Shown here piece by piece: positions 35,424 to 52,591 of a DNA stretch of 64,000 nucleotides. Both the position numbers and the translations under genes were made by a program. The notes beneath the pieces were generated by a model. That model was not told the DNA's origin. It did no database searches and worked only from the letters and a program-made list of their open reading frames with translations. Position 1 is the stretch's first letter, and each line of letters opens with the position of its first letter. Source of the DNA: Syntrophotalea acetylenica (lineage in GTDB: Bacteria; Desulfobacterota; Desulfuromonadia; Desulfuromonadales; Syntrophotaleaceae); NCBI RefSeq assembly GCF_001888165.1, contig NZ_CP015455.1, positions 682,001 to 746,000 of the forward strand, written 5' to 3'.

Positions 35424-36608
35424 TCAGCCTTTCACGGGGAAAAGGTCCTCCGCGGACCGCTCCGCGAGGCGGTAGATCTCGGGCAGGGACCGGCCGCTGC
35501 GGTCCGCCAGATCCCGACAGCTTTCGAATTCGGGAGACAACCGCACCAGGCACTGCCCATCGTAAAACAGCTTGACCAGGACCTCGCCAAGCGGCGTGTT
35601 TACACTACGGATATCGCGGCGCAGCTTGAAACGGCGGCTTTCCAGGCAGCGGACCCCTCCAGCGGTACTCTCGCGCAGGATGTGGCGGGCAAGCATCGCG
35701 GCGCTGTGGGGTTCGGCCACCACCGTGAGGCGGACCCCGGGGCGGTTTTTTTTCATTTGCAGCGGCGCGAAGCCCACATCCAGGGCTCCGGCTTTCAGCA
35801 ACCGCTCCATGAGGGCGCCGAGCCACTCGGGGTTGGCGTCGTCCAGGTGACATTCGAGGGTTGCCACGCGGTCCGTTTCCCCTTCCCAGGGATCGTCGGC
35901 AACGCCCAGCAGGCCGCGCAGCAGGTTGGGCCGATCGCTCAACTGCCGGTCGCCGGATCCGTAGCCGACACGATCGAGGGTCATCGCCGGAAGGTCGCCG
36001 AAGCGGGCGATCTCGGCAGCGATGGCGGCGCCGGTCGGCGTGACCAGTTCCACGGTGGCTGCATCGCCCACCGTGGGCAGCCCCCGCAGGATCTCCAGGG
36101 TCGCCGGAGCGGGCAGTGGAAAACTGCCGTGGGCGCAATCCACGGTGCCGCGGGTCAGGGGCAACGGGGCACAGATGACGCGCGCCGGACTCAGGTGATG
36201 CAGGCCGATGGCGGCGCCGACGATGTCGACGATGGAATCGACGGCGCCGACTTCGTGGAAATGTACTTCTTCAAGGGGGCGGTCATGAATTTTGGCTTCG
36301 GCCTCGCCGATGCGGCGGAATATGCGGCGTGCGAGGCCGATAACGGCTGGATTTAGCGGACAGTCGGCGAGCATGGCGTCGATTTGCCGCCAGGTGCGGT
36401 GATGATGCTGTTCCGCGTGTTCAACCACGATTTTGCAGGCGCCGATGTGCTGGCGTTCGGTGCGTTCCTGACGCAACCGGTAACCTGTAACGGGGAGTTT
36501 TTCCAGTCCGGCGGTAATGACCTCCAGCGGTACGCCCAGGTCGATCAGCATGCCGAGGAACATGTCGCCGGAGATGCCGGCGAAGGTGTCGAGGAACAAT
36601 ACGCTCAT
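35424..36608 (-). CDS. larC: LarC nickel-inserting enzyme for the nickel-pincer cofactor
   Basis: LarC inserts nickel into the pincer cofactor by CTP-dependent cyclometallation. The 394-residue protein starts MSVLFLDTFAGISGDMFLGMLIDLG. A His-rich loop AEQHHHRTWRQ near 64-74 and EEVHFHEVGAVDSIVDIVG near 113-131 are likely metal-handling parts. In some lactobacilli larC needs a frameshift; here it is one continuous frame. The start overlaps the larB stop by 4 bp. Confidence 0.93.
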   Translation of the reverse strand: MSVLFLDTFAGISGDMFLGMLIDLGVPLEVITAGLEKLPVTGYRLRQERTERQHIGACKIVVEHAEQHHHRTWRQIDAMLADCPLNPAVIGLARRIFRRIGEAEAKIHDRPLEEVHFHEVGAVDSIVDIVGAAIGLHHLSPARVICAPLPLTRGTVDCAHGSFPLPAPATLEILRGLPTVGDAATVELVTPTGAAIAAEIARFGDLPAMTLDRVGYGSGDRQLSDRPNLLRGLLGVADDPWEGETDRVATLECHLDDANPEWLGALMERLLKAGALDVGFAPLQMKKNRPGVRLTVVAEPHSAAMLARHILRESTAGGVRCLESRRFKLRRDIRSVNTPLGEVLVKLFYDGQCLVRLSPEFESCRDLADRSGRSLPEIYRLAERSAEDLFPVKG

Positions 36609-37363
36609 GGCTGAGGCCTCCGGTTGATGCGGTTTGCGGCGCAGGCAGCGCCGTAACCGTTGTCGATGTTGACCACGGTGATACCTCCCGCGCAGGAATT
36701 GAGCATGCCAAGCAGCGCCGCTACACCGCCGAGGGCAGCGCCGTAGCCGACGGATGTGGGCACCGCGATGACCGGCGCGGCCACCAGCCCGCCGATCACC
36801 GAGGGCAGTGCGCCCTCCATGCCGGCCACGGCAATGATTACCGAGGCACTGCGCAGTCGGTCGAGGTGCGCCAGCAGCCGGTGCAGGCCGGCAACGCCGA
36901 CATCGACCAACTCTTCCACCGCATTGCCGAACATGCGCGCAGTGGTGGCCGCCTCCCGTGCAACCGGCAGATCGGAAGTGCCAGCGCAGACCACCAGGAC
37001 AGTGCCGAGCCCCGTGCTCTGTGGCGGATGGCGGACGATGGTCAGGGTGCGCCCCAGTGGATCGTATTCGGCGTCCGGGAAAACTTTCATCAGAGCCGAA
37101 GCCTTGTCGGCATCGAGGCGGGTTGCCAGCATATTGCTGCCAGCATTGAGAAGCCCCTCGGCAATGCGCAGGATCTGATCGGAGGTTTTCCCCTCGCCGA
37201 AAACAACCTCCGGCGCTCCCTGACGCAGCCCCCGGTGATGATCGACAAGGGCATCGCCGACATCCTCGAAGGGCAGGGTGGTCAGTCGGTCAAGGCCATC
37301 TGCGACCGACAGTTCGCCGGAGCGGATGGCCATCAGGCAGGTTTTTAGACGATCGGGATCCAT
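36605..37363 (-). CDS. larB: LarB, nicotinic acid adenine dinucleotide carboxylase/hydrolase
   Basis: LarB carboxylates and cleaves NaAD as the first step to the nickel-pincer cofactor. The 252-residue protein has a C-terminal PurE-like domain: VVCAGTSDLPVAREAATTA near 120-138, AVAGMEGALPSVIGGLVAAPVIAVPTS near 177-203 and GITVVNIDNGYGAA near 229. The ATG at 37363 gives the normal length; upstream in-frame codons are Cys-rich and unlike the family. With larC and the distant larE the set for cofactor synthesis is complete. Confidence 0.94.
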   Translation of the reverse strand: MDPDRLKTCLMAIRSGELSVADGLDRLTTLPFEDVGDALVDHHRGLRQGAPEVVFGEGKTSDQILRIAEGLLNAGSNMLATRLDADKASALMKVFPDAEYDPLGRTLTIVRHPPQSTGLGTVLVVCAGTSDLPVAREAATTARMFGNAVEELVDVGVAGLHRLLAHLDRLRSASVIIAVAGMEGALPSVIGGLVAAPVIAVPTSVGYGAALGGVAALLGMLNSCAGGITVVNIDNGYGAACAANRINRRPQP

Positions 37364-37516
37364 GGGTGTTTGTCCTTGCGCGAATGGAAGACCCAAACGA
37401 TAACAATTCAGACCGCAAAAACAAAGGATAAATGTTGTTCGGTGAGGGGTCGCGCAAGGATTTGGAAATGCATGGCCGACCATGCTGCTTCGGTGACACA
37501 GCGCCTGGAGCAGGAG

Positions 37517-38792: not shown

Positions 38793-38822
38793 TTGACAAC
38801 GCTGTGGAGGCTTCGCTATATT
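38793..38822 (+). promoter_or_regulatory. Promoter of the TonB-dependent receptor gene
   Basis: TTGACA (38793-38798), 18-bp spacer, TATATT (38817-38822). Transcription should begin near 38829. The -10 box is embedded in the left half of the operator described separately. Confidence 0.75.
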
Positions 38823-38837
38823 GCCGAAACGATAGCG
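38814..38837 (+). promoter_or_regulatory. ModE-like operator 1
   Basis: CGCTAT-N12-ATAGCG is a perfect 6-bp inverted repeat in a 24-bp frame. Against the E. coli modA operator halves (CGTTATATTGTC / GCCTACATAACG) I count 16 identities in 24, with the changed third base matched by a complementary change in the other half. It covers the -10 box and start point, as ModE does at modABCD. A second overlapping palindrome, CGAAACG-N4-CGTTTCG, occupies 38825-38842 and could be the true site of another regulator. Confidence 0.65.
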
Positions 38838-38935: not shown

Positions 38936-40899
38936 ATGAAGTCAATCAAAGTACGGTTGGCCGCGATGTTGGTCGGGGCCATGATGGCCGGTGGTGCGGC
39001 GAATTTACAGGCCGCGACAGCTGACGAAGAGGTGTACCGGCTCGGCGAGGTTGTCGTGTCCGGTGAGGCTTCGGTTGTCGAATCGGTGGGTGTTACGCAC
39101 AAGGTGACCGCCGAAGAAATCCAGAAGCGTGGTGTGCGCACCCTGGATGAGGCGATCAATCTGCTGCCGGGGGTGACGGTCCGTGTCGGCGGTGACGGTA
39201 CGCCGCGCATCGATATCCGCGGATTGCGCACCCGGCATGTCAAGTTGCTGCTCAACGGTACCCCCTTCAACGCCACCTCCGATGGCCAGTTTGCGCCGAA
39301 CCTGATCTCGGTGGAAAATATCGCCGAGATCGTGGTCACCACCGGCGGCGCTTCGTCCCTCTACGGCGCCGGCGGCAACGCCGGGGTTATCAATGTTATC
39401 ACCAAGAAAGGCGCCAGGGGAGCCCATGGTTCCGCCGGGGTTGAACTTGCCGAAGGCGATACGCAACTGCTGCGCGCCACCGCTGGCTACGGTGCGGACC
39501 GGTATGATGTGTTTGTCAGCGGCAGCCTCTATGAAAGGGACTACTGGGAACTTTCCGATCATTTTTCGCCGAGCAGCACCGAGGATGGCGGTGAGCGGGA
39601 AAACAGCGATTACGAGCGGGACAATCTGTTCGCCAATATCGGTTTCGCTCCCACCGACGCCACCCTGATCGGGATGACGGTAAATTATCTCAAGAGTGAT
39701 TTTGGCAAGCCTCCGGTAGCCGTGGAGGATGATTTTGCCCCCAACCTGCGCTACGAGCGTGAGGAGGACGAAGGGTTCAACGCGCAGTTGGCGCTGGATC
39801 ACGATTTCAAGGGACCCCTGAGCTTCAAGGGCTGGGCCTACTACAACAAGCTAAACACCCTTGAAAACCGCTACCTCTCGGATTACGAGACGCAGGGCGC
39901 CGGGGCGCCGGGGACCTCCCGCACCGATGCCGAAACCCAGATTTCCGGGATCAATGGCCAGCTGCGTTACGACATGCAGCGATATGGTGTCGCGACCCTG
40001 GGTGTTATGTACGAAAACAACGACTATGAAGCCCTGGGTTTTTCCGTCAACAACCGCGGCAGGCTTTCGACGGTGGATGCTTCCGGTAACTTTCAGCTGT
40101 ATGCCACGACATTCGAATACGAGGTCACTCCGCTGCCCAAACTCGGTCTGGTGCTGGGGGCGGTTACCACTGGCAGGACCGGGCGGACAAGTCCGATGGG
40201 GACTACACCTACCTTGTCGGTCTGCGCTACGACCTTTTCGACGGAACCCGCCTGAAGGCCTCCCATGCCCGCAAGATCCGCTTCCCGACCCTGCGCGATC
40301 TGTATGATCCGGAACGGGGCAATCTGGATCTGGATGCCGAGGTGACCTGGAACACCGAAGTCGGCTTCGAGCAGGACCTGCCTGCCGCCACCACGGTTTC
40401 ACTGACCGGTTTTTATATGGACATTGAGGATTTCATTGAACGGCCCGATGGCGAAGTTCAGGTGCAAAACTACGAAAAATACGAATTCTACGGCGTGGAA
40501 GTGGCGGCCGAAAACCGTTATTTCGACGAATTGTTGCTGCGTGCCAGTTATTCCTACCTGCACAGCGAGGATAAAAGTTCCGACAGCAACCGCGACCAGC
40601 TTCAGAATAGACCCGAACACAAGGTGGTGCTGGAAGCGGCCTACCAGCTGCCCTGGAACATGAGTGTTTACGGCAGCGCCATGTGGGTGGCCAACGCCTA
40701 TACCTACAACGATGATGTTACGATCAAAAAGCGCATACCGGAATACCTGGTGTTCGATTTCCGGCTCAGCAAAAAAGTGGCGAACGCGCTGGATCTGTAT
40801 TTCGGCATCCACAATGCCTTTGATGCGGATTACGTGACCAGCTATGGCATTCCCCATGCCGGCCGTGCCATGTACGGCGGGGTGACCTGGAAGTTCTGA
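38936..40899 (+). pseudogene. TonB-dependent outer-membrane receptor, frameshifted in this sequence
   Basis: The first frame (38936-40255) encodes a signal peptide, a TonB box-like segment after it (EEVYRLGEVVVSGEA), the plug domain (TLDEAINLLPGVTVRVGG, DIRGLRTRHVKLLLNG, GGASSLYGAGGNAGVINVITKK) and the first barrel strands, then runs into unrelated sequence. The continuation, with RYDLFDGTRLKASHARKIRFPTLRDLYD and the terminal GVTWKF strand, is in another frame ending at 40899. Adding one G to the G5 run at 40156-40160 joins them into a normal receptor of about 654 residues. It may be a real mutation or a sequencing error. GGAGG precedes the ATG. The substrate is unknown. Confidence 0.88.
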
Positions 40900-40935
40900 T
40901 CATCAGGAAGTTTTTGAATCCTGTATTTGTTGGTG

Positions 40936-40978
40936 ACAACAGTCGGCCGGCACCCTCGGGGTGCCGGCCGACTGTTGT
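40936..40978 (+). terminator. Strong hairpin after the receptor gene
   Basis: A perfect 20-bp stem (40936-40955 with 40959-40978) closed by TCG, containing GTCGGCCGGCACCC and its complement. It lies 37 bp after the receptor stop. There is no T run on the + strand, so it may act with Rho or as a 3' stabiliser. Confidence 0.55.
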
Positions 40979-41121
40979 CTCGGGGCGAGATGGATTTGAA
41001 ATGCCGTTTCCGGTTATGATGAAACCATGCCGGGCATAGGAGGGGCGTCTCGCGCCAGCTGTGGATACCTGATGTCCGGATGCTTGTGTTTGCGGGTAAG
41101 CGCTTGTTCGTGGGGAAGTGT
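40979..41121. other. Non-coding stretch before the ECF operon promoter
   Basis: Part of a 351-bp gap. No gene, tRNA or clear operator was seen in this part. A GGAGGGGCG run at 41039-41047 has no start codon in a useful frame behind it. Confidence 0.35.
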
Positions 41122-41150
41122 TTGACTTGCTCCTAGAGGTTCGATATAGT
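41122..41150 (+). promoter_or_regulatory. Promoter of the ECF-TonB operon
   Basis: TTGACT (41122-41127), 17-bp spacer, TATAGT (41145-41150). Transcription should begin near 41157, leaving a leader of about 95 nt. The -10 box lies 3 bp inside operator 2, the same arrangement as at the receptor gene. Confidence 0.75.
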
Positions 41151-41165
41151 CCGCCATTAATAACG
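41142..41165 (+). promoter_or_regulatory. ModE-like operator 2
   Basis: CGATAT-N12-ATAACG in a 24-bp frame; the halves pair at five of six positions. I count 15 of 24 identities with the E. coli modA operator, and the right half TAATAACG is close to its ATAACG end. It begins exactly 3 bp before the -10 box, as operator 1 does 2.3 kb upstream. Confidence 0.6.
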
Positions 41166-41250
41166 TATTGAAGATCCCCCTCCGCCCGGGCTACGGGTAG
41201 CGATGTGCCGGAAGAAACGCTTTTTGGGCTCGAAGGCGGGATCAACGAGG
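41166..41250 (+). promoter_or_regulatory. Possible structured leader of the ECF operon
   Basis: The leader RNA contains GCTAC-GG-GTAGC (41190-41203 area) and a CCCG/CGGG pair, followed by GGAAGAAACGC and T5. It is short but GC-rich and could fold as an attenuator or small riboswitch. I could not match it confidently to a known class by eye, including the Moco/Tuco motif. Confidence 0.3.
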
Positions 41251-42621
41251 ATGGTTGTGCTGTTGCAGTTGCAGAATTTTTCCTACGCTTATCCAGGCAC
41301 CGGCACAGCTGTTTTGCAGGACGTCAACCTGGAGATCGAAGCCGGGTGCTGTTATTGCCTGACCGGACCGACCGGGTCCGGTAAAACCACCGTGGCGCTG
41401 GCGCTGAAGGGACTGCTGGACAGTGTGGACTGTTCCGGGACGATCGACCGCTTCGGAACGCCCGACACTAGAGAGGTTCGCGTCGGACTGGTTCTGCAGA
41501 ATCCCGAAACCCAGCTTCTGGCAACGACCGTTGGTGCTGAAGTCGCTTTTGGTCTGGAGAATCTCTGCGTTGATCCGCAAGCTATGCCGGCGCGCGTGGA
41601 GGCCGCGCTTTCCCTGGTCGATCTGTGCAAGCCGCTCGATTATCCCGTCGCCATGCTGTCCATGGGGCAGAAATACCGTTTGCTGGTGGCCGCGTTGCTG
41701 GTCATGGAGCCGCAACTGCTGATACTCGATGAACCGGCTGCGCAACTCGATCCGCAGGGTCTGGCGGCTCTTTGCCGGGTCCTGTCCGATTTGAAGGCCC
41801 GCGGGGTTGCAGTCGTGTTGTGCGAGCACCGCCCCGGTCCGTTGCTCGAGGTGGTGGATCGTTTCTGGCAGATGGACGGCAACGGAAGGCTCTTCCCGGG
41901 GCGCTGGCAGGCGCCTGAAGCGCCGCCCGCGATTTCGGCTGGCCAGGCTGGGACGGATTTTGCCGATGCGCCGGCTCTTTTGCAGGTGCGGGATCTGTCT
42001 TTTTCGGGACATGGAACGGTACCGGTCTGGAAAGATGTCTGCTTTGATATCCACCGGGGACAGTGCGTGGTCGTCACCGGCATGAACGGCACGGGCAAGA
42101 CCACCTTGCTGCGGGTGCTGGCCGGTTTCCTCAAGCCAGGTCGTGGCAGCATACGCATCTTCGATGGCGAACCGGAACCCCGTTTGTTGCGCCGGCGACT
42201 TGGCTGCCTGTTCCAGAACCCCCAAAAACAGATTTTTGAAAATACCGTGCGCGAGGAGATTGCCTTTCCTCTCAAGCGGTTTGGCTGGCCGGCGGCGGAT
42301 CGGGCCGCCCGTATCGAGGAAACCCTGCGCTTGTGTGGCATCGAACATCTTATCGATGCTTCGCCGCATAAACTCAGTTATGGGCAGAAACACCTGGTCG
42401 CCATCGCTTCGGTTTTGGCGCCCGCTCCAGAGATGCTTTTTCTGGATGATCCCTTCGCCGGTCTCGACGGTGCCCGACAGCGGGATGTCATGGACGTTCT
42501 GGACAGCTGGAGCCGGGAACGCGGTGTTACCCTGGTGATCACCTCCCATGATCCGGAGCAGGTTCCGGGTCTGGCCGACGGGCACCTGCATATCGAGGGG
42601 GGACGCATTGGCTGGCGATAG
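41251..42621 (+). CDS. ECF transporter ATPase, two ATPase domains fused
   Basis: A 456-residue protein with two complete ABC ATPase domains, the fused form of EcfA-EcfA'. Domain 1 (about 1-215): Walker A GPTGSGKTT, signature LSMGQKYRLL, Walker B LLILDEPAAQLD. Domain 2 (about 245-455): Walker A GMNGTGKTT, signature LSYGQKHLVA, Walker B MLFLDDPFAGLD, where the catalytic Glu is replaced by Asp. So the second site may hydrolyse ATP weakly. The ATG at 41251 directly follows GAGG; a GTG at 41257 has better spacing and is an alternative. The EcfT gene starts within its last codons. Confidence 0.9.
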   Translation: MVVLLQLQNFSYAYPGTGTAVLQDVNLEIEAGCCYCLTGPTGSGKTTVALALKGLLDSVDCSGTIDRFGTPDTREVRVGLVLQNPETQLLATTVGAEVAFGLENLCVDPQAMPARVEAALSLVDLCKPLDYPVAMLSMGQKYRLLVAALLVMEPQLLILDEPAAQLDPQGLAALCRVLSDLKARGVAVVLCEHRPGPLLEVVDRFWQMDGNGRLFPGRWQAPEAPPAISAGQAGTDFADAPALLQVRDLSFSGHGTVPVWKDVCFDIHRGQCVVVTGMNGTGKTTLLRVLAGFLKPGRGSIRIFDGEPEPRLLRRRLGCLFQNPQKQIFENTVREEIAFPLKRFGWPAADRAARIEETLRLCGIEHLIDASPHKLSYGQKHLVAIASVLAPAPEMLFLDDPFAGLDGARQRDVMDVLDSWSRERGVTLVITSHDPEQVPGLADGHLHIEGGRIGWR

Positions 42622-43309
42622 TTTCTCCCGATTGCATACGGCCTTGGCCCAGGGCCATCGCCGTGATGATGGACCCGCTGAGCCTGGCAAGGGGATCTCG
42701 CTGCCGGTAGGGGTCAAGATGCTGCTGGCGTTGACCCTTTCCTGTGTAGCTTTCGTGGCGCGCAGCGGGGTTTTTCTCGGCGCTCTTACTGCCGCCAACG
42801 CCGTGGTGTTTTTACTGCTTCGCCCGCAGGGTGTGTCATGGTGGCGGCAGGGGCGCTATTTTGTCTTGCAGAGCTCTACCATCGTCATTTTGTATATTAT
42901 CCGCTTCGGATCCCTGGAGGGCATTTGGGACGGTCTATTGATCTCCTGGCAACTTTTTCTGGCCTTCTGGCCGACCATGATATTCGCCAAGACCACATCC
43001 CAGACCAAGATCGTCCGCGCCATGAACCGCGTCATGCCGGGGCATGTTTCCTTCGTGCTGGCTACCTGTCTCAAGTTCGCCCCGCATTTGCTGGAAGAGT
43101 TTCGGGATATCTACGAAGGGCAGGTGTTGCGCGGCGCCAGGATTTTGCCGCGAGACCTGCTGAAACCATGGAACTGGCCGGATCTGGTGCATTGTGTCGT
43201 GGTGCCGGCCGTTGTACAGGGGATGGCTTTGGCAGGGAATATCGCCCTGGCCGCCCGCGCCCGGGATTTCGGGCTTTACTCCCGGCGCACCTGCTGGCCC
43301 GGGGACTAG
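42608..43309 (+). CDS. ECF transporter transmembrane subunit (EcfT)
   Basis: A 233-residue membrane protein. Hydrophobic helices lie near 40-75, 85-125 and 200-215. The long cytosolic coupling helices carry RGARIL near 169 and the C-terminal AARARDFG, the Ala-Arg-Gly type motifs by which EcfT contacts the ATPases. The likely start is a TTG at 42608 with GGGGGGAC 5 bp before it, overlapping the ATPase gene by 14 bp; no good ATG exists nearby. It couples ATP hydrolysis to substrate uptake by the S component. Confidence 0.85.
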   Translation: MAGDSFSRLHTALAQGHRRDDGPAEPGKGISLPVGVKMLLALTLSCVAFVARSGVFLGALTAANAVVFLLLRPQGVSWWRQGRYFVLQSSTIVILYIIRFGSLEGIWDGLLISWQLFLAFWPTMIFAKTTSQTKIVRAMNRVMPGHVSFVLATCLKFAPHLLEEFRDIYEGQVLRGARILPRDLLKPWNWPDLVHCVVVPAVVQGMALAGNIALAARARDFGLYSRRTCWPGD

Positions 43310-43321
43310 GAGTCTTGTTGC

Positions 43322-43876
43322 ATGATGAAGCAACTTGCCGCGCGTTTGTCCAATAGCTTGCATCTGCCCCTCAAGGATGCGCTGTTCCTTGGTTTCTGTG
43401 CCGTATTCGCAGTACTGGTGCGTATGCTCCTGCGACTGCACCTGCATGTATCCGGGCATGCCATGATTACCAAGATTTTTTTCCTGATGCTGGGTCGCGG
43501 CAGCACTTCCTGTCGCTACGGGGCAAGTTTCACCGGGTTGCTGGCCGGAACCGCGGCCATGTTTCTCGGCTTCGCCAAGGTCGGTCCCTTCATTATCGTC
43601 AAGTATGTGCTGGCCGGGCTCGTGATCGATCTGGCCGCCCTGCTCCTGCCGGGACTGTTCGGCAGTTATCTGCTGTGCGCCCTGGTAGCGGCCGCCGCGG
43701 CATCCACCAAGTTTTTTACCGTGTATGCCATCAACAGGATGATCGGCATGGACCACGTGGTGAATCTGCAGCGTTCCCTCCTGGAAGCAGGGGGCGCCAT
43801 CATTTTTGGCGTGGCGGCCGGTTTGATGATTCCGATGGTCGTGCGGCGGCTCAGGGCCTACGGCGTCGTGCGTTAG
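43322..43876 (+). CDS. Membrane protein, probable ECF substrate-binding (S) component
   Basis: A 184-residue protein with about five hydrophobic helices (near 22-40, 60-78, 85-108, 112-130, 155-172). Its size, topology and position right behind EcfT (12-bp gap, AGGAG before the ATG) fit an S component. I do not recognise the substrate class. Polar or reactive residues inside the membrane region include HLHVSGHAMITK near 42-53 and SCRYGASF near 62-69, which could line a binding pocket for an anion or metal complex. Confidence 0.65.
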   Translation: MMKQLAARLSNSLHLPLKDALFLGFCAVFAVLVRMLLRLHLHVSGHAMITKIFFLMLGRGSTSCRYGASFTGLLAGTAAMFLGFAKVGPFIIVKYVLAGLVIDLAALLLPGLFGSYLLCALVAAAAASTKFFTVYAINRMIGMDHVVNLQRSLLEAGGAIIFGVAAGLMIPMVVRRLRAYGVVR

Positions 43877-43954
43877 TCCGTTGTGTGTTCCGTTGCCCGA
43901 ACGGCAACGTTTCAGAGAAGATATGGCGGCTGATAGCCGCGGGGAGTGTGAACC

Positions 43955-44701
43955 ATGAAAATTCTGGTATGTATCGATGATACCGATAACCTCGAATCGC
44001 GCGGTACCGGTGATCTGGCGACCGAACTTGCCGAAGAACTTCAGAACCGCCGATGGGGACAGAGTCTGTTCGTGACCCGGCACCAACTGCTGGTGCATCC
44101 CGATGTACCCTATACCTCGCACAACAGTTCCATGTGTTTCGAGGCGGATATCGCTCCGGAATATCTGCAGCCGCTCATCGACTACGCGAGCGACTACCTT
44201 GAGCGGGAAAGCGCGCCCGGATCCGATCCGGGATTGTGTGTCGCCGTTGTGGATCAGTTGCCGGACCAGGATGCGGTTGTGACGTTTGGCCGCAAAGCCA
44301 AGGAAGAAGTCCTGAACAAACAGATGGCCTATGAACTGGCGGGTCAGTTGGGCGTGCATCTCTCCGAACATGGCGGCACCGGACAGGGAGTGGTCGGAGC
44401 TCTTGCCGGCATCGGCCTGCGGCTCGGTGGCAACGACGGGCGACTGAAGGGGTGGCTGGATATTCGCACCCGTGAAGGATGGGCGACGGTAGGCGAGATT
44501 CTCAGTCAGGTCCCGCTACAGGGTGTTCGCACCATGGACGGGGCGATTCTGGGGCCGGAGCAAATGGTCGCGGTCGATGACAAACCCAAGGCTGTGCTGA
44601 TTGACGGTGGTACCTATCTGATGGTTTCGCCCGAACGGGAGACCTGCGCCGAAGGGGTTCGGTGGCGCACCACGCCGCGGCATCAATTGAAAAAATTCTG
44701 A
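43955..44701 (+). CDS. TiaS N-terminal-like protein (IDDTD motif) in the uptake operon
   Basis: A 248-residue soluble protein beginning MKILVCIDDTDNLESRGTGDLA. The IDDTD motif at 7-11 and the whole N-terminal part recall the kinase-like domain of archaeal TiaS (tRNA-Ile2 agmatinylcytidine synthetase), but the OB and zinc-ribbon domains needed for tRNA work are absent. Other features are HNSSMCFEAD near 59-68 and GGTGQGVVGALAGIGLRLGG near 144-163. It may be an ATP-dependent ligand-handling protein. It is preceded by hairpins in a 78-bp gap and followed by a small Cys-rich gene, all in one operon. Confidence 0.65.
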   Translation: MKILVCIDDTDNLESRGTGDLATELAEELQNRRWGQSLFVTRHQLLVHPDVPYTSHNSSMCFEADIAPEYLQPLIDYASDYLERESAPGSDPGLCVAVVDQLPDQDAVVTFGRKAKEEVLNKQMAYELAGQLGVHLSEHGGTGQGVVGALAGIGLRLGGNDGRLKGWLDIRTREGWATVGEILSQVPLQGVRTMDGAILGPEQMVAVDDKPKAVLIDGGTYLMVSPERETCAEGVRWRTTPRHQLKKF

Positions 44702-44725
44702 AAATTTCTCAGGGCAGGAGGCAGC

Positions 44726-44932
44726 ATGTGGTTGATCAACACGCAGGGTGAACGGGAATTCCGGCATGGCCATGAGGCCTACGGGCTGGCTGCCGCCACA
44801 GCGCGGGCCTGCGTCCGCTTTTGTGCCGATGTCGAGGACGAGTGGACGGCCGACGAGGAACGCTCCTGTTATAACTGCCGATTGCGGCGCTGGACGCGGG
44901 CATCCTTTTTGTGTCTTGCGCCCGCTTCCTGA
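44726..44932 (+). CDS. Small Cys-rich protein, unknown
   Basis: A 68-residue protein with GGAGG 5 bp before the ATG. Five cysteines: C29 and C33 (ACVRFC), C48 and C51 (SCYNC), and C63. The CxxC pair followed by an Arg/Trp run and a later Cys suggests a small zinc or iron-sulfur site. It lies 24 bp after the TiaS-like gene and 27 bp before the DxDxDG protein, inside the operon. I do not recognise the family. Confidence 0.65.
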   Translation: MWLINTQGEREFRHGHEAYGLAAATARACVRFCADVEDEWTADEERSCYNCRLRRWTRASFLCLAPAS

Positions 44933-44959
44933 CCGTGTCGTCAGACGCATGGGGGGGAA

Positions 44960-45775
44960 ATGAACAAAATTTTTGTGATGCTTGTCCTGTGCCTGGTTTT
45001 TGGCGGCGGCCTGGCGCGGGCCGAAGAGTGGACGCGCGAGAGCCCGGGGCAGAAGGCCTATTACGACGCCGCCGGTAACCTGAAGCGGGTGCTGCTGGAT
45101 GCCGATCGTGACGGCAGGTTCGAGGCCGAAGAGCAGTATGCCGGACGGCGCCTGTCCCGCCGTGAGGACCGCGATGGCGACGGCATTCATGAACGCCGCT
45201 ATGACTGGCAGAAGGATGGTTCCGCCCGTCTTGTGGAGGATCGGGGCAAGGGGCCGATCCAGACCACCTGGTTTGATCCGAAAGGCGTCATTGTCAAGGT
45301 TGCCAGGGACAAGGATCGCGACGGCAAGCCCGAAATCACCTGGCGCTATGAAAAGGGCGTGTTGCGGCAGGTTGAAAAAAATCGCGGGACCTGGTTTTAC
45401 CAGAACGGGAAACTGGCACGGGCCGAACTCGATACCGACAAAGACGGCCGTACCGATCGCCGGGAGTATTACCGTCAGGGACGCCTGGAGCGATCCGAGG
45501 ATCTGGGGCGTTCCGGGAAGGTGCACCGTAAATGGTTTTTCGATGAGGCCGGCAAGCCGCTTCGGCAGCAAGAGGACAGTGACGGAGACGGCCGCATGGA
45601 AAGGCTGCGTGTTTATCGCAAGGATGGCTCCGTAATCCAGACGGTGGATGCGGATCTTAATGGAAAGCCTGAAATTCGTGAGCGTTACGCGCCCGACGGG
45701 CGGATGGTCAGCCGTGAAGAAGATCTGGACGGTGACGGCGAGTTCGATCTGCGCAGCGGGCGCCTCAAGGAGTGA
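44960..45775 (+). CDS. Secreted protein with seven DxDxDG calcium-loop-like repeats
   Basis: A 271-residue protein with a signal peptide (cleavage after GGGLARA, about residue 21). The mature part is built of repeats of about 35 residues pairing a YDxxGxL-type strand with an acidic loop: DADRDG, DRDGDG, DKDRDG, DTDKDG, DSDGDG, DADLNG and DLDGDG. Such loops bind calcium in EF-hand-like and dockerin proteins. Likely periplasmic, perhaps a spacer or ligand-binding partner of the receptor/TonB system. It is followed by exbB with a 5-bp gap. Confidence 0.72.
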   Translation: MNKIFVMLVLCLVFGGGLARAEEWTRESPGQKAYYDAAGNLKRVLLDADRDGRFEAEEQYAGRRLSRREDRDGDGIHERRYDWQKDGSARLVEDRGKGPIQTTWFDPKGVIVKVARDKDRDGKPEITWRYEKGVLRQVEKNRGTWFYQNGKLARAELDTDKDGRTDRREYYRQGRLERSEDLGRSGKVHRKWFFDEAGKPLRQQEDSDGDGRMERLRVYRKDGSVIQTVDADLNGKPEIRERYAPDGRMVSREEDLDGDGEFDLRSGRLKE

Positions 45776-45780
45776 ATGTC

Positions 45781-46485
45781 ATGCAGAACTGGTTGGCTTT
45801 TCTGGAAAAAGCGGGTCCGATCGGACTCATGATCATCTTCTGTTCGGTGATCGCCCTGTTCATTATTGTCGAGAGGGCGCTGGCTTTCCGCTCGTTGCGC
45901 CTGCGGGACGGCCGCCTGTATCATCGACTGCGCAAGCGGGCCCAGGAAGGCAGTTTTGACGAGGCCGCGGCGTTGGCCAGACAGGAACGTCATCCCTGGG
46001 CAGTGGCCATGGTCGAGGTTCTTGCGCGACTGGCAGGCAAGGGCGGCGCTTCGACCCGTACCGAACTTGAGAAAACCTTCAGCCATGTGGCGGCGCGGGA
46101 AGTGCGCGGCATGGAGCGTTTTCTGCCGACCCTGTTTCTCATCGCCAGCATTTCACCCTTGCTTGGCCTGCTCGGAACCGTAACCGGCATGATCAAGGCC
46201 TTCAAGGCCATTGAAAACCTTGGCGGAAAGGTCGATGCATCGGTTCTGGCCGGCGGGATATGGGAGGCCATGCTGACCACCGCCCTGGGGTTGGGAGTCG
46301 CTATCCCTGCCATGGTCGCGCACAACTATCTGCAGGGCCGGGTGCATGCGACAGTGGCCGATATGAAGGAGGAGACGGGCATTTTCCTCGACGCTCTTGA
46401 AGATGCCGGCATTCTCGCCGCCGGGGAGAATAAGAACACCGTCCGGGTGCAATCCATCAACGGTAGCGGCAGGGAGGTCGGGTAA
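45781..46485 (+). CDS. exbB: ExbB/TolQ/MotA-family proton channel protein
   Basis: A 234-residue inner-membrane protein with three hydrophobic segments (near 15-35, 120-145 and 165-190). The hallmark LFLIASISPLLGLLGTVTGMIKAF lies near 121-144. AAGGAG stands 8 bp before the ATG; a GTG three codons earlier overlaps the preceding stop. With ExbD it turns proton flow into movement of TonB. Its stop overlaps the exbD start (TAATG). Confidence 0.92.
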   Translation: MQNWLAFLEKAGPIGLMIIFCSVIALFIIVERALAFRSLRLRDGRLYHRLRKRAQEGSFDEAAALARQERHPWAVAMVEVLARLAGKGGASTRTELEKTFSHVAAREVRGMERFLPTLFLIASISPLLGLLGTVTGMIKAFKAIENLGGKVDASVLAGGIWEAMLTTALGLGVAIPAMVAHNYLQGRVHATVADMKEETGIFLDALEDAGILAAGENKNTVRVQSINGSGREVG

Positions 46486-46886
46486 TGGAGATCCCGGTGC
46501 GCTCTCAGACGACAGGGCTGAACCTGACCCCACTGATCGACATCGTCTTTTTGCTGCTGGTTTTTTTTCTTCTGACCACCCACTTTATCGAGGAAGACGG
46601 TATCGGAGTCCGACTGCCTTCCGCGGCCAGTACCACGGTTCGCGAAAAGGATGAGGTGGCCGTGGCCATTACCCGTGACGGCCGCTATTTCATCGCCGGG
46701 CAACAACTGCCGCTGGCCAGGGTCGAGGAGACCTTGCGGGGGAGGCTCAAACCGGACACCATCGTCGTTATCCGCGGTGACCGTGATGTGCCGCTGCAGA
46801 CCGCTGTCTCGGTAATGGAGCGGGTTAAAAAGGCGGGCGCCAACCGTATCGTGGTGGCTACCCTCGAAGAGGCGGGGGCATCGTGA
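46485..46886 (+). CDS. exbD: ExbD/TolR-family protein
   Basis: A 133-residue protein with one N-terminal membrane helix, LTPLIDIVFLLLVFFLLTTHF at about 14-34. D19 is the conserved proton-carrying Asp. The rest is a periplasmic domain ending near a TonB gene that overlaps it (GTGA). Order exbB-exbD-tonB with overlaps shows one translation unit. Confidence 0.92.
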   Translation: MEIPVRSQTTGLNLTPLIDIVFLLLVFFLLTTHFIEEDGIGVRLPSAASTTVREKDEVAVAITRDGRYFIAGQQLPLARVEETLRGRLKPDTIVVIRGDRDVPLQTAVSVMERVKKAGANRIVVATLEEAGAS

Positions 46887-47653
46887 AATTCAGTCGCACA
46901 TGGGTGGCCATGATGGTCTCCGTCGGGGTGCATGTTGGCATGGTCCTGGCTCTTGCCATCGGCATGATCACCCCTGTGCGGCGGGTCAATCGTATCGAGG
47001 TTGACCTCGAGGGAGTCGCGATGCCGATCATGCCTCCGGACGTTGCCGCCCCTTTGCCTGCTGCCGGGCCGGAAATGCCCAGTCTCGCATCTATACCGAC
47101 CCCCGCTGCGGCTCCGCGCAAATTACCCAGGCCGGCTCCTGTCGTGGCCATGCCTGCTCAGGCGCCGGCTCCATCCCTTCCGGTAGCCGATGGCGATTTT
47201 CCACCAGCGGAAGTCGGCGCTTTGCCCGGCCCCCCCAGCGTCGCAATGACGACCGGAGTTGGCGGGGGCGGTGATGGCGGAGCTGGTTCGGCCTCCGGTT
47301 CCGGAGGTGGCGGTGCCGGTTTGGCCGGAGGCGGTCGGGGACGCAGGGGGGGCGGCTCCGGCTCGGCTCTGGCCGGATATCTGCAGGCCATCAGGGCCAG
47401 GGTCGACGCGGCAAAACGTTATCCGCAGATGGCGCAGCAGCGACGCCAGGAAGGCACCGCGGTTGTCTCCTTCCGGCTGACTCCTTCAGGAGAACTGGTC
47501 GCCGAACCGGTAGTCAGCCGAAGTTCGGGCTACCGGCAGTTGGACGATGCTGCGGTTCGTGCCGTTTCACGGGGCGCTCCCTATCCCCGATTCCCTCTCG
47601 ATCCGAGTGAAATGAGGGCGATTGAAATACCGGTGAAGTTTTATCTCCGGTAA
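46883..47653 (+). CDS. tonB: TonB-family energy transducer
   Basis: A 256-residue protein starting at GTG. One N-terminal helix (about 7-27) is followed by a Pro/Ala-rich span, then a Gly-rich hinge (about 125-162), and a C-terminal TonB domain (about 175-256): GTAVVSFRLTPSGELVAEPVVSRSSGY with DDAAVRAV and a YPRFP end. It links ExbBD to outer-membrane receptors such as the one at the head of this region. Confidence 0.9.
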   Translation: MKFSRTWVAMMVSVGVHVGMVLALAIGMITPVRRVNRIEVDLEGVAMPIMPPDVAAPLPAAGPEMPSLASIPTPAAAPRKLPRPAPVVAMPAQAPAPSLPVADGDFPPAEVGALPGPPSVAMTTGVGGGGDGGAGSASGSGGGGAGLAGGGRGRRGGGSGSALAGYLQAIRARVDAAKRYPQMAQQRRQEGTAVVSFRLTPSGELVAEPVVSRSSGYRQLDDAAVRAVSRGAPYPRFPLDPSEMRAIEIPVKFYLR

Positions 47654-51469: not shown

Positions 51470-52276
51470 ATGGCAGGTCGCCACGAAGTGTATAACAAAC
51501 TGCAGGGGGAGACGCTGGTTCGCAAGGGGCTCATGCAAAAGCATGCCGACATAAAACCGCTTCGATTGATTCCGGATCTGCAGGTGGTAAAAATTGGTGG
51601 CCACGGTACCATCGATTTCGGTCGCAAGGTGGTTATGCCTCTGCTGGAAGAGGTCGGTGAGCAGGCCAGTCATCACAAGATGCTGGTGGTGACCGGCGGC
51701 GGGGTTCGGGTACGGCACATTCTCGATGTGGGTATTGACCTGGGCATGCCTACCGGCGTACTGGCCAGGCTGGCCGGAAAAATCAGCGAACAGAATGCGG
51801 AGATGGTGGCTTTGCTGCTGTCAAAATGGGGCGGGACCCACGTGGACAGCGACGATATCCTCGATTTGCCCATGCTGCTTAAGCTCGGCTTTTTACCCGT
51901 AACCCATGGCACGCCGCCCTATGGCCTGTTCGAACATCCACCGGAGAGTGGTTTGATCCCTCCACACCGGACCGATACGGGCGCGTTTTTGATGGCGGAG
52001 GTTCTCGGTGCCAAAAGCTGCATCCTGGTTAAAAATGTCGACGGTTTGTTTACCGAGAACCCGACGGTCAATCCCGATGCTGAACTGATCGAGGATATTA
52101 CCGTCGACGAACTGCTGGCCATGGAAATGGAAGATATGGTTCTTGAAAGCAAGCTTCTCTATCTGTTGCGCGATGCCAATAGTCTCAAGGAAGTACGCAT
52201 TGTCAATGGCCACAAGCCCGGCAATGTAACCAGGGCCCTGCGCGGCGAAAAGGTCGGAACCGTCATTCGCGCCTGA
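51470..52276 (+). CDS. Molybdenum storage protein (MoSto) subunit homologue
   Basis: A 268-residue member of the amino-acid/uridylate kinase family. Against the MoSto subunits of Azotobacter it shares the order PLRLIPDLQVVKIGG near 28-43, VVTGGGVRVRHILDVGIDLGMPTGVLA near 72-98, ESGLIPPHRTDTGAFLMAEVLGA near 160-182, a VKNVDGLFTENP segment near 187-198 and the end RALRGEKVGTVIRA. MoSto packs up to about a hundred Mo or W atoms as polyoxometalate inside an ATP-using cage. Only one subunit gene is here where Azotobacter has two. GGAAGGAGG precedes the ATG. True UMP kinase (PyrH) differs at the start and in length. Confidence 0.8.
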   Translation: MAGRHEVYNKLQGETLVRKGLMQKHADIKPLRLIPDLQVVKIGGHGTIDFGRKVVMPLLEEVGEQASHHKMLVVTGGGVRVRHILDVGIDLGMPTGVLARLAGKISEQNAEMVALLLSKWGGTHVDSDDILDLPMLLKLGFLPVTHGTPPYGLFEHPPESGLIPPHRTDTGAFLMAEVLGAKSCILVKNVDGLFTENPTVNPDAELIEDITVDELLAMEMEDMVLESKLLYLLRDANSLKEVRIVNGHKPGNVTRALRGEKVGTVIRA

Positions 52277-52381: not shown

Positions 52382-52591
52382 ATGAGTGGCAAGATTTTTT
52401 ATCGTGAGCGTCGCAAGGTCGTCGATGGTGCCAAGCAACCCCGCTATGTGCTGGTGGCTGTGGCGGATCTCAACCTCAAGGTGTTCGGCAAGCATCTGCG
52501 CATGAGTGAGATGAAAGCCATTGCGGAAGCTACCGGCGCGGAGCTGGTGGCGCTGCCCCGTGGCAGCAAGCACACGGATGAAGATGAATGA
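52382..52591 (+). CDS. Small protein next to the Mo-storage gene, unknown
   Basis: A 69-residue soluble protein with GGGAG before the ATG. It begins with a basic strand (KIFYRERRKVVDGAKQPRY), has a compact alpha-beta middle (VLVAVADLNLKVFGKHL, SEMKAIAEATGAELVAL) and an acidic tail. It follows the MoSto homologue by 105 bp and precedes a terminator that serves both. It might be an accessory or nucleation factor of the storage protein, which is speculation from position. Confidence 0.65.
   Translation: MSGKIFYRERRKVVDGAKQPRYVLVAVADLNLKVFGKHLRMSEMKAIAEATGAELVALPRGSKHTDEDE

Follow-up and report, generated by a model that had tools for sequence, protein, structure and literature searches.

A putative TonB-coupled ECF importer for tungsten, possibly also for molybdenum, in Syntrophotalea acetylenica and its relatives

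Introduction

Which substrate is carried by an importer that combines a TonB-dependent outer-membrane receptor and its own ExbB-ExbD-TonB motor with an energy-coupling factor (ECF) transporter? The question is raised by positions 38936-47653 on the + strand of the window, a stretch of 64,000 nucleotides from the 3.2-Mb genome of Syntrophotalea acetylenica (contig NZ_CP015455.1, positions 682,001 to 746,000). To our knowledge, ECF importers are known only for vitamins, nickel and cobalt. An earlier note on this DNA had suggested an uptake system for molybdenum (Mo), tungsten (W) or a metallophore. Comparison of the locus with its relatives led us to conclude that it probably encodes a dedicated two-membrane TonB-ECF importer of tungsten, possibly also of molybdenum. 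If this holds, an ECF importer with a new class of substrate-binding (S) component, joined to a TonB receptor, would act on a new kind of substrate.

Results

The gene run and its putative S component

Every gene named in the earlier note is present in the region:

38936..40899, + strand: TonB-dependent receptor, in two open reading frames (ORFs; 38936-40255 and 40342-40899); Plug domain E 2.4e-21, barrel E 1.8e-20
41203..42621, + strand: EcfAA, two fused ECF-type ATPase domains; ECF ATPase models match two stretches
42548..43309, + strand: EcfT transmembrane component; CbiQ family PF02361, E 4.3e-10, 40 bits against a cut-off of 25
43322..43876, + strand: EcfS, putative substrate-binding S component; 184 amino acids, hydrophobic, in the S position
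43955..44701, + strand: TiaS-like ATP-binding (TCKD-type) protein; profile E 1.8e-6, fold E 1.6e-9
44726..44932, + strand: 68-amino-acid Cys-rich protein (CYNCRLRRWT) of no known family; homologues in relatives
44960..45775, + strand: secreted-type protein with seven DxDxDGxxE-like (EF-hand-type) repeats; signal-peptide-like start
45772..46485, + strand: ExbB/TolQ-type proton channel; PF01618, E 1.2e-29
46485..46886, + strand: ExbD/TolR-type protein; PF02472, E 5.8e-30
46883..47653, + strand: TonB; PF03544, E 3.3e-16

Pfam matches above the cut-offs for the receptor Plug and barrel, ExbB, ExbD and TonB identify a TonB-dependent system, and the gene and domain matches bear out its combination with a double ECF ATPase, EcfT and a protein in the S position. 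The three soluble or secreted partners noticed before are the TiaS-like, the Cys-rich and the repeat protein. EcfAA has 472 amino acids, with an in-frame ATG near 41251 that is perhaps the true start (by eye); it scores below the equivalog cut-offs of the ECF_ATPase models and above that of the cbiO subfamily model. The repeat protein has a weak MORN_2 match under the cut-off, and the Cys-rich protein matches no NCBIfam or Pfam family. Genes were called with a simple ORF caller, which missed TonB in the window, S in L032, L129, L130 and L136, EcfT in L033 and the TiaS-like gene in L149, L150 and L156 (L numbers denote loci, G numbers genomes); all were recovered through other searches.

Sequence searches with the S protein of the window returned no Pfam, NCBIfam or PDB match, and hence none to solved S components or to any curated vitamin or Ni/Co S family. 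When 16 family members were run against Pfam at E values up to 10, three weak and unrelated matches appeared. We therefore regard the protein as a new sequence family and as a putative S component; that it falls into no vitamin class by sequence leaves the Mo/W uptake reading standing. An alignment of 33 S sequences shows R38, G45 and M48 without exception, and H46 and R59 each in 32.

Conservation of the gene set

The S gene occurs in 16/121 genomes of the order; a search of the class with a 16-row profile found it in 42/248 genomes. In all 16 order loci S has a receptor of the same family, the double ATPase, EcfT and the TiaS-like gene no more than 10 kb away, and because of this recurrence the arrangement of the five genes is beyond chance. 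A further 16 loci were taken from 26 additional genomes of the class; the receptor was seen in 14 of them and the TiaS-like gene in 13, and the two loci without a receptor, L135 and L138, lie near contig ends. Other parts of the run are more restricted: ExbB and ExbD occur together in 8/16 order loci and the repeat protein in 7/16, all of them in the window's own family. Homologues of the Cys-rich protein follow the TiaS-like gene in L019, L023, L024, L029 and some loci of other families. Three genes on the opposite strand separate the receptor from the ECF genes in L022-L024.

Several other genes accompany these loci. In L127, L132, L133, L137 and L139 the receptor is flanked by proteins that resemble lipoproteins and carry fibronectin-type repeats (by eye), and small proteins of about 118-138 amino acids are found repeatedly next to tupA-like, S or EcfAA genes in part of the loci. 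Upstream of the receptor in the window, and divergent from it, lie LarC- and LarB-like genes (35424-37483; nickel-pincer cofactor type, by eye), a pair that is retained beside the importer genes in L019 and L022-L024.

A ModE-type operator common with wtpABC

The ModE-like site to which the earlier note had drawn attention lies upstream of the receptor gene:

38814..38837, no strand assigned: predicted ModE-like operator CGCTATATTGCCGAAACGATAGCG, CGCTATA-N10-GATAGCG; 1 mismatch to CGYTATA-N10-TATARCG

It overlaps the -10 hexamer (TATATT) of a sigma-70-like promoter, TTGACA/TATATT (by eye). The motif CGYTATA-N10-TATARCG was taken from the promoters, membership was assigned by motif only, and the reversed pattern served as control. 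At up to one mismatch the own genome holds four motif places, against one for the reversed control. One is the site in the window; a perfect copy stands about 85 bases before wtpA (WtpA 457.5 bits, cut-off 355); a third lies near a gene labelled here as DUF364-like and a 435-amino-acid protein that matches no Pfam family; and the fourth is located about 2 kb before MoeA-like and molybdenum-hydroxylase-like genes. The genome encodes one ModE, barely over its cut-off (98.8 against 98.5 bits).

Seven relatives of the same family carry 2-4 sites per genome, 22 in total, and the reversed control gives 2 in total. The motif precedes wtpABC in G103, G106, G107, G109 and G110, and the receptor and/or EcfAA in G103, G104, G106, G107, G109 and G110. 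In G100 it lies between a gene for the companion of the molybdenum-storage protein (MoSto) and a tupA-like gene, and in G104, by arithmetic on the coordinates, about 0.5 kb from the MoSto companion; other sites belong to a MoeA-like gene region (L116) and to a 442-amino-acid relative of the 435-amino-acid protein (L114). Before the receptor of the 16 order loci the site is present with at most one mismatch in nine and with two mismatches in five (L020, L025, L028, L032 and L033); L026 and L027 have none there at up to two mismatches. The shared predicted operator thus places the importer genes in a putative Mo/W (ModE) regulon, and its overlap with the -10 box agrees with ModE acting as a repressor when loaded with metal. 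ModE senses molybdate and tungstate alike, and control of this type responds to the metal anion.

The 435-442-amino-acid proteins (L039 7182-8489 and L114 3125-4453) have the ModE-like site at the 3' side of their gene.

Moco/Tuco riboswitches in relatives

Rfam models were run on 28 S loci (L021, L029, L031 and L032 were left out) and on the window. RF01055, the Moco/Tuco (molybdenum or tungsten cofactor) riboswitch, was found in 13 of the 28: L026, L033, L126-L132 and L136-L139. In 11/16 loci of two other families (L125-L140) the TiaS-like gene is closely preceded by this RNA on the same strand, and a second copy precedes EcfAA in L136, L138 and L139. In L126, L128 and L131 the called start of the TiaS ORF falls inside the RNA and is therefore too early. 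L026 and L033 have the riboswitch before an upstream AOR-type gene, on the strand of the receptor-ECF genes, and L140 has Moco-II in its place. RF01055 is absent from the window and from the own-family loci that were run (L019, L020, L022-L025). A vitamin riboswitch controlling such operons was named beforehand as a sign of another function; none was present in the window or the 28 loci, in which the only other riboswitches were of the c-di-GMP type (L020, L134). By RF01055, homologous operons in 11 of the 16 loci L125-L140 belong to the Moco/Tuco riboswitch regulon.

The P3 stem is absent in 5/5 RF01055 alignments inspected, three of them before TiaS-ECF genes (L129, L131, L137), one before an AOR-type gene and one before the tup genes of L131. 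This result stands on the five alignments only, as a text check that was clear in 11/19 RNAs was not used; the 19 RF01055 RNAs listed are 117-122 nt long, in keeping with the loss of P3. According to the parts of Regulski et al. 2008 (PMC2408646) available here, 17/19 organisms with P3-less Moco RNAs also carry tungsten-cofactor genes; sensing of Tuco by such RNAs is a proposal of that paper, which also discusses Pelobacter carbinolicus and holds that the riboswitch senses the finished cofactor. A riboswitch before the TiaS-ECF genes fits feedback by finished cofactor.

Molybdenum and tungsten genes in the neighbourhood

The label set for Mo/W genes comprised tupA/B-like genes, WtpA, MoSto and its companion, ModE, AOR-type genes, moa/moe and similar. 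Such genes lie within 10 kb in 18/33 S loci and in 0/20 control stretches (Fisher p 1.7e-5), a count that is partly circular since the labels were drawn from genes in these loci, above all L026, L033 and the region of the own wtp genes; the controls came from the same genomes at positions chosen as round numbers. Further loci were collected with the TiaS profile, for which 18 of 31 matching non-own genomes were taken, one being counted among the S loci; of the resulting 17 loci, four of which also contain S, 10 have a Mo/W gene at this distance. MoSto is present at this distance in 8/33 S loci and in 8/17 further TiaS loci, accompanied by the companion in 6 of the latter 8. The Mo-storage homologue noted in the window is indeed one of these linked genes:

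51470..52276, + strand: MoSto homologue, linked accessory gene; MoSto beta E 1.7e-62, residues 21-268
52382..52591, + strand: 69-amino-acid companion of the MoSto homologue; labelled in the same 8/33 S loci as MoSto

By alignment the former is homologous to MoSto subunits over its full length and is a putative metal-storage protein; the companion has no Pfam match. In L002 MoSto follows directly after TonB.

Among the examples, L026 has the order AOR-type, MoaD-like, MoeB/ThiF-like, ModE, receptor, ECF, TiaS-like, followed by TupABC-like genes and MoeA; its TupA-like protein scores 224 bits against a strict cut-off of 400. AOR-type, ThiF-like, TiaS-like, ECF, receptor and TupABC-like genes are found in L131 and L132, and MoSto, companion and tupA-like genes in L137 and L140.

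The TiaS-like protein

The match to TiaS spans only about the first 158 residues, that is, the N-terminal ATP-binding TCKD-type domain with its DDTD motif. With 35.7 bits against an NCBIfam cut-off of 600 the protein falls far below a full-length TiaS. The fold match (Foldseek E 1.6e-9) was obtained from a model with a pLDDT of 63.3 in which residues 162-248 are unreliable. Profile and fold both match 3u02, a 252-amino-acid TiaS-like structure of Pyrococcus furiosus, which we regard as a lead; Pyrococcus furiosus is known for its tungsten enzymes.

Three loci without a labelled ECF gene (L153, L156, L158) also have a TiaS-like gene, beside MoSto and genes of the Wtp or Tup type. FecCD-type permeases occur near the TiaS-like gene in L143, L144 and L147; L144 and L147 add Peripla_BP_2 binding proteins, and L147 also a receptor, MoSto and companion. 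More than one kind of inner-membrane importer may therefore be served by the TiaS-like protein and perhaps also by the receptor.

A TiaS-S fusion, suspected from long open frames in L149 and L150, was not found on translation.

Discussion

Proposed function

From these data we infer the direction of transport and the following order of steps. A W (or Mo) species that is scarce outside the cell would be bound by the TonB receptor, which would draw its energy from a dedicated ExbB-ExbD-TonB. S would take over the substrate from the periplasm, as the core has no periplasmic binding protein, and the EcfAA-EcfT module would move it inward at the expense of ATP. In the cytoplasm the TiaS-like ATP-binding protein may act on the arriving substrate and the MoSto-type protein may store the metal. 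Plentiful metal would presumably lower expression, by ModE over the -10 box in the window and by the P3-less Moco (putative Tuco) riboswitch in relatives.

The Mo/W link of the earlier note is supported, and of the two metals tungsten is the better guess, since the riboswitches inspected are P3-less. Tungsten is favoured because of these RNAs, the company of wtp and tup genes and the AOR-type neighbours, though no single result separates the two metals. A more specific proposal has, in our view, about even chances: the new S class would bind a W species (oxyanion, polyoxotungstate or a W-chelate delivered by a TonB receptor), and a group-6 metal would for the first time be the substrate of an ECF importer; the TiaS-like protein would be a new enzyme that uses ATP to process tungsten and works with importers of the ECF, Tup/Wtp and FecCD types.

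Several observations weigh against a tungsten importer. The predicted S model has six long helices and a short N-terminal one, and it is too poor to use (pLDDT 47.6, from a 3-row alignment). The receptor gene of the window is not one open frame, with a single break at about 40156-40159; both parts align along intact relatives, and the own genome has a second, intact receptor (L124) with 57.7% and 65.7% identity over the two parts. Besides the partial circularity of the label set, in 15/33 S loci the surrounding 10 kb contain no gene with a Mo/W label. Eight of these carry a ModE-type site at up to one mismatch (L022, L029, L030, L031) or a riboswitch (L127-L130); neither signal at that threshold was seen in L027, L028, L032, L125, L134, L135 and L141, among which L028 and L032 have sites with 2 mismatches, L125, L134, L135 and L141 were outside the motif scan and L032 was outside the Rfam run. 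No Mo/W gene is labelled at the motif sites of L115, L119 and L123. Counted by genome, RF01055 is present in 41/42 S-bearing and 111/206 other genomes (Fisher p 4e-9), a difference confounded by ancestry, and AFOR, with 41/42 against 182/206 (p 0.09), is non-discriminating. Finally, a loss of modABC, tup or wtp had been expected, and the own genome has ModA-, WtpA- and TupA-like proteins (the TupA-like one under the strict cut-off); the importer would therefore be an additional, probably low-supply route.

Two candidate arguments were accordingly dropped: replacement of lost mod, tup or wtp systems, which the own genome still represents by such proteins, and AOR co-occurrence as support for W, as the AFOR distribution does not discriminate.

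The second receptor locus of the own genome (L124; G000:C1 about 2225700-2231600, L124 6683-12560) combines the intact same-family receptor with a second TiaS-like gene, an Fe-S/heterodisulfide-reductase-like protein (by eye), a BtuF/FecB-type binding protein and, nearby, a glycyl-radical-type enzyme (by eye); it has no ModE-like site at up to one mismatch. In L003 (1809-7540) the receptor occurs in two tandem copies with a reverse-transcriptase/maturase-like ORF between them (group II intron type, by eye). L112 (592-2553; G103) encodes a different TonB receptor with 28% identity, preceded by a ModE-like site; it is perhaps a second metal receptor.

Alternative substrates

Two alternatives are variants of the proposed tungsten importer, and their odds therefore overlap with it. 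Tentatively, and with a real if lesser chance of being right, the imported species may be a W or Mo chelate, either with a catecholate-type metallophore or as an organic complex, from which the TiaS-like protein or another partner would free the metal. TonB receptors classically carry chelates, and the best family models for the receptor are heme-type, siderophore and B12 receptors, all far under cut-off. The FecCD-type permeases and Peripla_BP_2 proteins of L143, L144 and L147 belong to a class used for chelates. Azotobacter vinelandii, according to the part of a review seen here (PMC13036778), obtains Mo and V by siderophores, which keep W out. Metallophore synthesis genes were, however, not noticed in the loci, no search being aimed at them, and the nearly invariant Arg and His residues of S also suit an oxyanion.

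It is unlikely, though still worth considering, that the system is tuned to molybdenum and takes up W incidentally. ModE responds to either anion, the storage protein is named for Mo, and the motif of the own genome is also found about 2 kb from a Mo-hydroxylase-type region. Against this, the five riboswitch alignments without P3 are of the putative W-cofactor type, the perfect copy of the operator stands at wtpABC, a W-type transporter, and AOR-type genes are present in L026, L033, L131 and L132, that of L026 with just 84.5 bits against a strict cut-off of 868.

We consider it distinctly improbable that the ECF module serves pterin salvage, importing dephosphorylated molybdopterin or a breakdown product of Moco/Tuco with the TiaS-like protein as salvage kinase. 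ECF S components mostly bind vitamins and are often paired with kinases, the TiaS-type ATP fold is supported, and sensing of the finished cofactor by the riboswitch would suit such a pathway. ModE-type control, in contrast, answers to the metal anion, and the company that TiaS-like genes keep with MoSto-like genes (8/17 further TiaS loci) and with Tup or Wtp genes (L153, L156, L158) points to the metal.

An ordinary vitamin, Ni/Co or iron-complex ECF system with Mo/W genes nearby by chance is very improbable: most described ECF systems carry such substrates and EcfT and the ATPases resemble CbiQ/CbiO, but the operator common to wtpABC, the Moco/Tuco riboswitch and the Mo/W neighbours in separate lineages, as well as the lack of a vitamin riboswitch in the 28 loci and the window, argue against it. 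A vitamin or Ni/Co substrate was rejected on the last of these results and on the lack of an S-family match.

Relation to known systems

The proposed tungsten importer resembles the dedicated (group I) ECF systems CbiMNQO and NikMNQO in its two ATPase domains, its CbiQ-family EcfT and an adjacent small hydrophobic S-like protein in one gene run. Three features set it apart: its S protein matches neither CbiM/NikM nor a vitamin S family, its genes are preceded by ModE-type sites or Moco/Tuco RNA, and it is linked to a TonB receptor. As in BtuCDF and FecBCD with TonB, a receptor and ExbB-ExbD-TonB would feed an ATP-driven inner-membrane importer, but here this importer is of the ECF type, its core lacks a periplasmic binding protein and its regulation is of the Mo/W type. 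TupABC, WtpABC and ModABC share the ModE-type site, the Moco RNA and in some genomes the neighbourhood; unlike the present system, they are binding-protein-dependent ABC importers without a dedicated outer-membrane step. MolBCA is a type II (BtuCD-type) Mo/W importer, and FecCD-type genes lie near TiaS-like genes in L143, L144 and L147, whereas the system described here uses ECF. TiaS itself, the tRNA-Ile2 agmatidine synthetase, shares the N-terminal TCKD-type domain and DDTD motif; the match does not extend beyond this part, and the genes found here keep the company of metal genes.

Within the part of the literature covered, we found neither an ECF or TonB system of such kind for W or Mo nor anything on TunR or tungbindin. 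The sections available of PMC13119186 treat CbiMNQO and trace-element effects, and those of PMC2996986 describe mod, tup and modE genes of Geobacter bemidjiensis, without a TonB hit.

If our reading is true, a TonB-ECF line for tungsten adds a substrate class to the ECF importers. It would give the TiaS-like family, which recurs with W/Mo genes in the phylum, a role, and it would provide a testable outer-membrane step for W/Mo. It would thereby explain how anaerobes that live on tungsten enzymes may take up a very scarce metal across their outer membrane.

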